Notes under the pieces: generated by a model | Seen by the model: only the letters and a program-made list of their open reading frames with translations | Database searches by the model: none | Told to the model about the DNA's origin: nothing | NCBI GenBank assembly: GCA_900319655.1 | Contig: ONPH01000062.1 | Location: forward strand, 1-11,857 | DNA from: an uncultured Eubacteriales bacterium | Lineage (GTDB): Bacteria; Bacillota; Clostridia; Oscillospirales; Acutalibacteraceae | Direction: 5' to 3' | DNA: 11,857 nt | Program-made: the position numbers and the translations under genes | In this document: piece by piece, positions 5,274 to 8,427 of the stretch | Layout: each line of letters opens with the position of its first letter | Numbering within the stretch: the first letter of the stretch is position 1

Positions 5274-6350
<1,077 letters not shown>

Positions 6351-6842
6351 TTAAACAGATACCGCCGTGTTGCCTTTGTCTATTGCGACTGTGCCTGTTC
6401 TTACAATCTCACGAATTCCGTAGGGCCTGAGCAAATCAATAAGCGTCTCTACCCTGCCCGCGGTCTCGCAGTACTCAACGGTAACGCAGCTCGGCGCAAC
6501 GTCAACGATTTTCGCCTGCATAATCTCGGCGGTTTTGATAATTTCCGCACGCTTTGAAGCCGCGCAGTGAACCTTGATCAGGATAAGCTCGCGGCTGATA
6601 AAGTCGCCGTCGTTAAGCCTTTTTACCTTGATAACGGGAATCACCTTGTTAAGCTGTTTTTCGAGCTGTTCAATCACATATTCGTCGCCGTTTGCGACGA
6701 TGGTTATTCTCGACACCCTCGGGTCGTTGGTCACGCCTACCGCCAAGGAGTCGATGTTGAAGCCTCTGCGCGAGAAAAGTCCCGAAATTTTCGAGAGCAC
6801 GCCGGCTTGGTTTTCTACAAGAATTGACAAAGTATACTGCAT
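6351..6842 (-). CDS. ilvN: Acetolactate synthase regulatory (small) subunit
   Basis: This 163-residue subunit activates the catalytic IlvB and makes it sensitive to feedback by branched-chain amino acids. An N-terminal ACT domain (about 1-76) is clear: it begins TLSILVENQAGVLSKISGLF and includes RGFNIDSLAVG and SRITIVA. N11 and G14, which match the valine-binding positions of E. coli IlvH, are conserved. The second domain (about 80-160) has REL-ILIKV and the DVAPSCVTVE segment of the ALS small-subunit C-terminal fold. The length equals that of IlvH. AAAGGAG lies 7 nt before the ATG. It follows ilvB after 22 bp, in the usual order ilvB-ilvN-ilvC. It is intact even though the catalytic partner beside it appears damaged. 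ilvH is an alternative name. Confidence 0.96.
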   Translation of the reverse strand: MQYTLSILVENQAGVLSKISGLFSRRGFNIDSLAVGVTNDPRVSRITIVANGDEYVIEQLEKQLNKVIPVIKVKRLNDGDFISRELILIKVHCAASKRAEIIKTAEIMQAKIVDVAPSCVTVEYCETAGRVETLIDLLRPYGIREIVRTGTVAIDKGNTAVSV

Positions 6843-6864: not shown

Positions 6865-8427
6865 TCATATCGACGGTGTGTCGGGATAAACGTTGCACAC
6901 CAGAATAAACGGCTTGTCCGACTTTACAACGTCCTTCAAAATCTCCTCAGCCTCGGCGTTGGAGCTTACCTCGGCGTGGTCGATTCCGTAAGCCTCCGCG
7001 ATTTTAAGAAAATCGGGATCGCCCTGGAGCACCGTTTCCGAATGACGGCAGTCGTAGTAGTTATCCTGAAGCTCGCGCACCATGCCGAGCCTGTGATTGC
7101 GCATAATGATAATCTTAATGCCAAGGTCGTTGCCTCTGATTGTAGCAAGCTCGTTCATGCTCGCGCCGACAGCCGCCGGGATTGAATAACCCATCGTGCC
7201 CATACCGCCTGTGGTTAAGAACCTGCCGTCGCGAATTCTGAAGTTATTTGCGCACCAAATCTGGTTTTGTCCGACGTCGGCAACAAGAATCGCTTTTGAG
7301 CGGAGCATTGAGCTCAGGTGGGCGATAAGCGTTCTCGGCTCAACAAAGCCGTCGAACACGGGCGGAACCCTGAGGAAGTCCTTTTTCCAGGTCTTGACAG
7401 TCTCCTGCCACTGGTTGGGAACAACGTAATCACCGATATTTTCAATCAGCATATTCATAACGTTCTTCATATCGCCTACAATCGGGATTTCGGTCTTAAC
7501 GTTTTTGCCGATTTCAGCCGGGTCGATGTCGATATGAATCACAAGCGTGTTTTCGCTCATCTGGTGCGGAGAGGCAACCGCTCTGTCGCCGAGCCTTGCG
7601 CCGCAAACAATAACCAAGTCCGCGTCGTGAAGTGCGCGGTTTGCGACGGTCTTGCCGTGAGTTCCGAGCATACCGAGGTAAAGCTCGTGCTCGCTGGGCA
7701 TTACGCCGATTCCCATCATCGTTGAAATTACGGGAATAGAGGTTTTCTCCGCAAATTTTCTGAATTTGGGCTTAACGCCCGAGAGCAGCACTCCGCCGCC
7801 CGAAACAATAACGGGGCGTTTGCTGTTCTTTATAGCCTCAACAGCTCGCCTTACCTGAATTGTATGACCTTTTGTGTTGGGCTTGTAGCCGATTATGTTT
7901 ACGCTTTCGGGGTACTCAAAGGACTCGAGCTCGTTAATCTGAATATCCATGGGAATATCAATCAAAACAGGGCCTTTACGTCCGGTAGATGCGATGTAAA
8001 ACGCCTCTTTAAATACCCTCGGCAAATCCTCGGTCTTTTTAACAATGTAACTGTGTTTTACAAACGGCTCGCACGCGCCGGTGATGTCCGCCTCCTGAAA
8101 AACGTCTCTGCCGAGAAGATCGCTGCGAACCTGTCCGGTAATCGCGATAAGCGGAATAGAGTCGGTATACGCCGTGGCGATACCCGTAATCAGGTTTGTA
8201 GCGCCCGGGCCCGAGGTTGCGACGCATACGCCGGGCTTGTTGCTGCACCTTGCGTAGCCGCTCGCCATATGAGCCGCGTTCTGCTCCTGACGAACCAAAA
8301 TGTGCTTAATCTGCGAATCGTATATTTTATCGTAAAAGGGGCAAATAGTAGCGCCGGGATAGCCAAAGACGACCTCAACGCCCTCTGCTTCCAGACATTT
8401 TACCATTATTTCGGCACCGCTAATCAT
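6865..8427 (-). CDS. ilvB: Acetolactate synthase catalytic (large) subunit, GDG cofactor motif missing
   Basis: IlvB condenses two pyruvates, or pyruvate and 2-ketobutyrate, using thiamine diphosphate, Mg2+ and FAD. The 520-residue protein has the N-terminal ThDP domain with the catalytic Glu in VRQEQNAAHMASGYAR (E48) and SGPGATNL. The central FAD domain has GMLGTHGKTVANRAL and CGARLGDR, and the C-terminal domain has VADVGQNQIW, GGMGTMGYSIPAAVGA and LGMVREL. The reading goes from A422 straight to S423-MNELAT. In the family about 20 residues stand between these blocks and include GDGxFQM, the first half of the GDG-x(24-30)-N ThDP/Mg motif. Their in-frame absence also explains a length below the usual 540-570. 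Catalysis should be lost. AAGGAGG (9 nt spacing) and a strong promoter precede the start. The family assignment is secure; whether the gap is real or an assembly fault is open. Confidence 0.95.
   Translation of the reverse strand: MISGAEIMVKCLEAEGVEVVFGYPGATICPFYDKIYDSQIKHILVRQEQNAAHMASGYARCSNKPGVCVATSGPGATNLITGIATAYTDSIPLIAITGQVRSDLLGRDVFQEADITGACEPFVKHSYIVKKTEDLPRVFKEAFYIASTGRKGPVLIDIPMDIQINELESFEYPESVNIIGYKPNTKGHTIQVRRAVEAIKNSKRPVIVSGGGVLLSGVKPKFRKFAEKTSIPVISTMMGIGVMPSEHELYLGMLGTHGKTVANRALHDADLVIVCGARLGDRAVASPHQMSENTLVIHIDIDPAEIGKNVKTEIPIVGDMKNVMNMLIENIGDYVVPNQWQETVKTWKKDFLRVPPVFDGFVEPRTLIAHLSSMLRSKAILVADVGQNQIWCANNFRIRDGRFLTTGGMGTMGYSIPAAVGASMNELATIRGNDLGIKIIIMRNHRLGMVRELQDNYYDCRHSETVLQGDPDFLKIAEAYGIDHAEVSSNAEAEEILKDVVKSDKPFILVCNVYPDTPSI

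Follow-up and report, generated by a model that had tools for sequence, protein, structure and literature searches.

Known acetolactate synthases

The gene considered here belongs to valine, leucine and isoleucine biosynthesis, and its closest described relatives are the large subunits (IlvB) of biosynthetic acetolactate synthase that make up the family TIGR00118. Excerpts of a survey of the wider superfamily (PMC3534367) describe a GDG-X24-27-N motif that binds Mg and thiamine diphosphate (ThDP), number the active-site glutamate E51, and give glycine at G443 in 98% and aspartate at D444 in 91% of the superfamily. A natural case of an inactive large subunit is also on record: excerpts of another paper (PMC6483228) describe ilvG (AHAS II) of Escherichia coli K-12 as naturally inactive, with other isozymes present. 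The ilvB gene described below is like ilvG in being, as assembled, a large-subunit gene unable to yield active enzyme while isozymes exist, but ilvG is frameshifted, whereas the ilvB loss is in frame and is probably absent from the organism.

The ilvB gene and its 60-bp gap

The window, which is the whole 11,857-nucleotide stretch of DNA that we analyzed, is contig C41 of G000, a draft genome that comprises 1,598,845 bp spread over 226 contigs and is 80.67% complete. Its ilvB gene lies on the minus strand at 6865..8427, running from an ATG at 8427 to a TGA at 6865, and as read it encodes 520 amino acids. The product scores 610.6 bits against TIGR00118, above the NCBIfam cut-off of 538.35, and contains all three TPP-enzyme domains. 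Alignment to the closest IlvB protein, P0001 (540 amino acids, 664.7 bits, found on 85 contigs), shows 20 residues absent between A422 (codon 7164-7162) and S423 (codon 7161-7159), so that the break falls at 7161..7162 on the minus strand. The absent residues, 423-442 of P0001, are KFARPNRDVVVVCGDGSFQM; their codons end in CGDGSFQM, the ThDP/Mg motif, and the GDG of GDG-X24-27-N is therefore missing from IlvB as assembled. Outside the gap there is a single difference between the two proteins, A484E in P0001 numbering. At the DNA level we compared the gene with locus L033 of genome G059 (a bin from run SRR873598), which has 95–96% identity to the window over ilvC, ilvN and ilvB, and the loss relative to it is exactly 60 bp. 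The initial annotation had reported an in-frame loss of the GDG half of the motif near 7161, and in both place and size it was correct.

It had also described the flanking blocks, E48 and the partner gene as intact, and this agrees with our comparisons. E48, which we take to be the catalytic glutamate, is retained and is invariant across 12 aligned kin. The gene for the small regulatory subunit, ilvN (6351..6842, minus strand; PRK11895, 207.7 bits), adjoins ilvB and is intact, with 99% identity to its L033 counterpart over 163 amino acids. By profile match and comparison with kin, ilvC (ketol-acid reductoisomerase; 5274..6314, minus strand) is likewise intact, and the gene order is ilvB-ilvN-ilvC. 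The window's IlvB thus shares its domains, E48 and gene order with P0001 and the L033 protein, and differs from this family in the 20 residues, GDGSF included, that its assembled sequence lacks. Outside the gap, ilvB and L033 differ at 54 codons synonymously and at 6 nonsynonymously, so the gene has been constrained until very recently or still is, and purifying selection appears to be acting on what remains of it. An enzyme made from the sequence as assembled, were that sequence real, would presumably have no activity. AlphaFold models of the window's IlvB and of P0001 reached mean pLDDT values of only 46.7 and 37.7, for which shallow alignments are the probable cause, and were left unused.

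Distribution of the gap among relatives

An ilvB-like ORF is present in 112 loci, 101 of them at ≥70% identity, one of which (L001) is the window's own copy. GDG is kept in all 100 of the remaining fetched loci at ≥70% identity, which are not 100 independent genomes since some contigs were fetched from two collections; the GDG pattern was unmatched in the distant locus L030 (37.5%). Among the 167 proteins listed (the 120 best of 7997 IlvB matches together with the 120 best of 1161 matches to a 40-residue query spanning the junction), not one carries the joined sequence; these listings are folded at 90% clusters whose members may be hidden. A protein sharing the junction would match the 40-residue query nearly fully, and the best 120 of its 1161 matches are all ≤67% identical and lack the junction.

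These distributions bear on the suggestion in the initial annotation that the gene is a decoy or regulatory paralogue, taken here as an IlvB from which selection has shed the cofactor motif. Such a protein would retain its other domains, as this one does, and ilvN is indeed adjacent, but the gene is the orthologous ilvB, one residue off P0001 outside the gap and in its usual place beside ilvN and ilvC. With GDG in every one of the 100 further loci fetched at ≥70% and the gap in no other protein listed, we find a decoy scarcely credible. The idea that the motif is dispensable and that active homologues share the gap fares equally poorly. It could draw on P0099, a 526-amino acid protein from one contig that lacks VCGDGSF, but this is the sole GDG-less protein among the 167 relatives listed, it stands beside P0068, P0141, P0144 and P0158 with other one-contig gaps that resemble assembly noise, and the 98% and 91% conservation of G443 and D444 given in the excerpted superfamily survey (PMC3534367) also argues against it. 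Our literature search found no paper on an in-frame deletion of GDG in acetolactate synthase.

We also note that 5 of the 167 relatives listed (P0068, P0099, P0141, P0144 and P0158, each from one contig) have in-frame interior gaps of ≥4 amino acids. All five gaps differ, and that of P0144 removes the catalytic glutamate (E48). They are probably similar assembly noise, and they would fit the view that in-frame losses from assembly occur at some background level among public metagenome proteins.

The breakpoint

Microhomology at the ilvB breakpoint amounts to 2 bp (GA), which is at chance level when 60-bp deletions are placed along the L033 gene (P = 0.18). In L033 there are no direct or inverted repeats of ≥8 bp around the break and, given this and the short microhomology, repeat-driven collapse or slippage was rejected. 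Hairpin-driven deletion was likewise unsupported, with fold z values around the break of 0.02 and 0.36 in L033 and 0.56 in L034, and a weak –1.70 in L035. A loss targeted at the motif was rejected as well. A loss of this size would remove the whole GDG in 18 of the 521 codon-aligned 20-codon windows, and each of these 18 contains at least 7 residues invariant in the 12 kin, so any such loss would appear damaging. A DNA search of the whole assembly for the missing 60 bp returned only a diverged paralogue on contig C94 (discussed below) and short matches, and thus no stray fragment that would prove a join.

Other interior losses in the same assembly

How often the draft genome lacks interior pieces of genes was measured by comparing the window and 60 other G000 contigs (549,763 bp, 34% of the assembly) with 1,473,876 bp of a genome of the same genus, G021. 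ORFs were called mechanically and some contigs were cut at 20 kb. The ilvB pair (the window and G021 locus L005) was entered deliberately, so that the ilvB gap is there by construction, and all else was blind. Among 201 G021 ORFs with a G000 match of ≥65%, there were five G000 gaps of ≥8 amino acids, and two of these have conserved flanks, ilvB (20 amino acids) and alaS (28 amino acids). The three low-flank gaps were left uncounted; two are in one ORF matching L140 and one is in the low-complexity tail of a protein (match L239) that we take to be branching-enzyme-like. Six matches are split by frame breaks in G000, with net changes of –89, –76, –41, –7, –1 and +7 nt.

There are thus six G000 losses of ≥7 bp: 60 in ilvB, 84 in alaS, 41 in pgk, 76 in trkH, 89 in a CNNM/GldE-like gene and 7 in tsaD. 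The frame is broken in four of the six and kept in two, which is the chance expectation. The alaS gene (L240, contig C58, 3616-6180) lacks 28 residues (84 bp) in frame relative to G021 and a second relative, G059, and pgk (L254, contig C72, 7910-9074), intact in both of those genomes, is split by its frame-breaking 41-bp loss. On L131 (contig C97), 4743-5737 and 12425-13884, lie tsaD (–7 nt, frame-broken, confirmed in G059) and a second frame-broken gene (–1 nt relative to G021), presumably amylase-like. The –76 nt change in trkH (L130, contig C96, 1137-2377) is confirmed in G059, and the –89 nt change in the CNNM/GldE-like gene (L140, contig C106, 10022-11063) is seen relative to G021. The gene with a net +7 nt, split relative to G021, is at 7206-8154 of L246 (contig C64) and is, we presume, glycosyltransferase-like. 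As to gene identity, tsaD and alaS score above the cut-offs of their NCBIfam families. The names trkH and GldE/CNNM-like come from best matches that fall short of the cut-off, and the match of pgk, to the phosphoglycerate-kinase portion of PRK13962, falls short as well.

In the mirror control, 180 G000 ORFs compared with G021, there were three G021 gaps, whose flanks all reach at most 10/20 identity, and two splits. One of the splits is independent (–1), and the second is the pgk event viewed from the opposite side. G059 carries intact the stretches missing from pgk (41 bp), alaS (84), trkH (76) and tsaD (7), so that four of the five non-ilvB losses are confirmed by a second relative; the CNNM/GldE-like gene has no match in G059, and its loss is seen against G021 only. 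The identity of G059 to G000 is 95–96% at pgk and ilvB and 78–88% at alaS, trkH and tsaD, so it is a close relative and not the same strain. Microhomology at the breaks is 2 bp in ilvB, 1 in pgk and 0 in alaS, trkH and tsaD, the last three values being rough at 78–88% identity. Searches of G000, an 81% complete assembly from which further copies could be missing, turned up pgk and alaS in their damaged versions only, with no second copy of either.

Origin of the gap

Hardly any bacteria can do without alanine-tRNA ligase, phosphoglycerate kinase or TsaD. That one organism has lost interior parts of alaS, pgk, tsaD and ilvB is most unlikely, and the simplest cause is one shared assembly defect by which pieces were joined across unfilled stretches. 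With clean gaps of this kind in several genes, among them genes that are normally indispensable, assembly error is the most likely explanation, and we consider it highly likely that the ilvB motif loss would prove to be an unfilled or dropped assembly gap and not a real feature. In the living organism ilvB is very probably of the ordinary 540-amino acid kind, the 60 bp being missing from the draft assembly and not from the cell. The headline of the initial annotation, in which losing precisely the cofactor motif has left a stable but catalytically dead subunit, is not supported, given the similar losses in alaS, pgk, tsaD, trkH and the CNNM/GldE-like gene; the assembly or consensus error that it listed as an option gains support from these same interior losses.

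The pipeline may have bridged a thinly covered stretch by uniting the pieces on its two sides without filling it, through a forced join or a dropped gap, or the contig may have been built on chimeric reads; under either route the motif would have been lost by chance. Which assembly step was responsible is a guess on our part. Since 60 is divisible by three, the reading frame came through undisturbed, and ilvB is conspicuous only for this and for the famous motif that its missing stretch includes. Two points stand against an assembly origin: a de Bruijn assembler normally requires reads that span a junction, and the ilvB break has no repeat that would explain a collapse.

The alternative is that the 60-bp in-frame deletion is genuine and of recent date in a single strain or subpopulation, whose cells would make a dead IlvB and survive by means of another synthase or external branched-chain amino acids. 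A second acetolactate synthase large subunit is in fact encoded on contig C94 (L002, 1102-2802); it is intact, has 566 amino acids and an unbroken GDG, and scores 676.6 bits against TIGR00118. The initial annotation had raised the possibility of such a second enzyme, and its existence is borne out, but not a compensatory role. Of 35 same-genus genomes searched, 22 have an ilvB orthologue at ≥70% and 21 of these 22 have the paralogue too (G007 partial), so the paralogue is normal in the genus and the C94 copy is no sign of compensation. The intact frame and flanks of ilvB and an intact ilvD in G000 also suit a genuine deletion, as does, weakly, the finding of no leuA above its curated cut-off in the 81% complete G000, a test that only 9 of 14 control genomes pass. 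Microhomology of 2 bp could go with an ordinary deletion, but it is no more than chance provides. Against a genuine deletion are also its junction, seen in 0 of 167 relatives listed, and above all the comparable losses in alaS, pgk, tsaD and trkH, since it is most unlikely that all of these would be tolerated. We therefore judge a genuine deletion improbable, and slightly more so its fuller form, in which a wild Ruminococcus-like strain makes a true GDG-less IlvB that pairs with IlvN while the second, conserved synthase supplies the pathway.

Taken as an assembly gap, the ilvB case is less a discovery than a warning. Blunt interior losses of 7–89 bp occur in this draft metagenome genome, and an assembly loss that happens to keep the frame mimics a precise loss of function. 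Such losses come to light without reads once the remainder of the assembly is set against a close relative.

Other genes in the window

Seven other genes of the window have comparable kin, and relative to the closest of these their gaps are ≤2 amino acids; accC, accD and accA were left out of this check because their kin are absent from the comparison set. The cadA gene has gaps of up to 25 amino acids around residues 68-84 relative to kin at 60–64% identity, and against its closest kin, L034, there is just a 1-amino acid difference in this region, which we take to be a variable linker.
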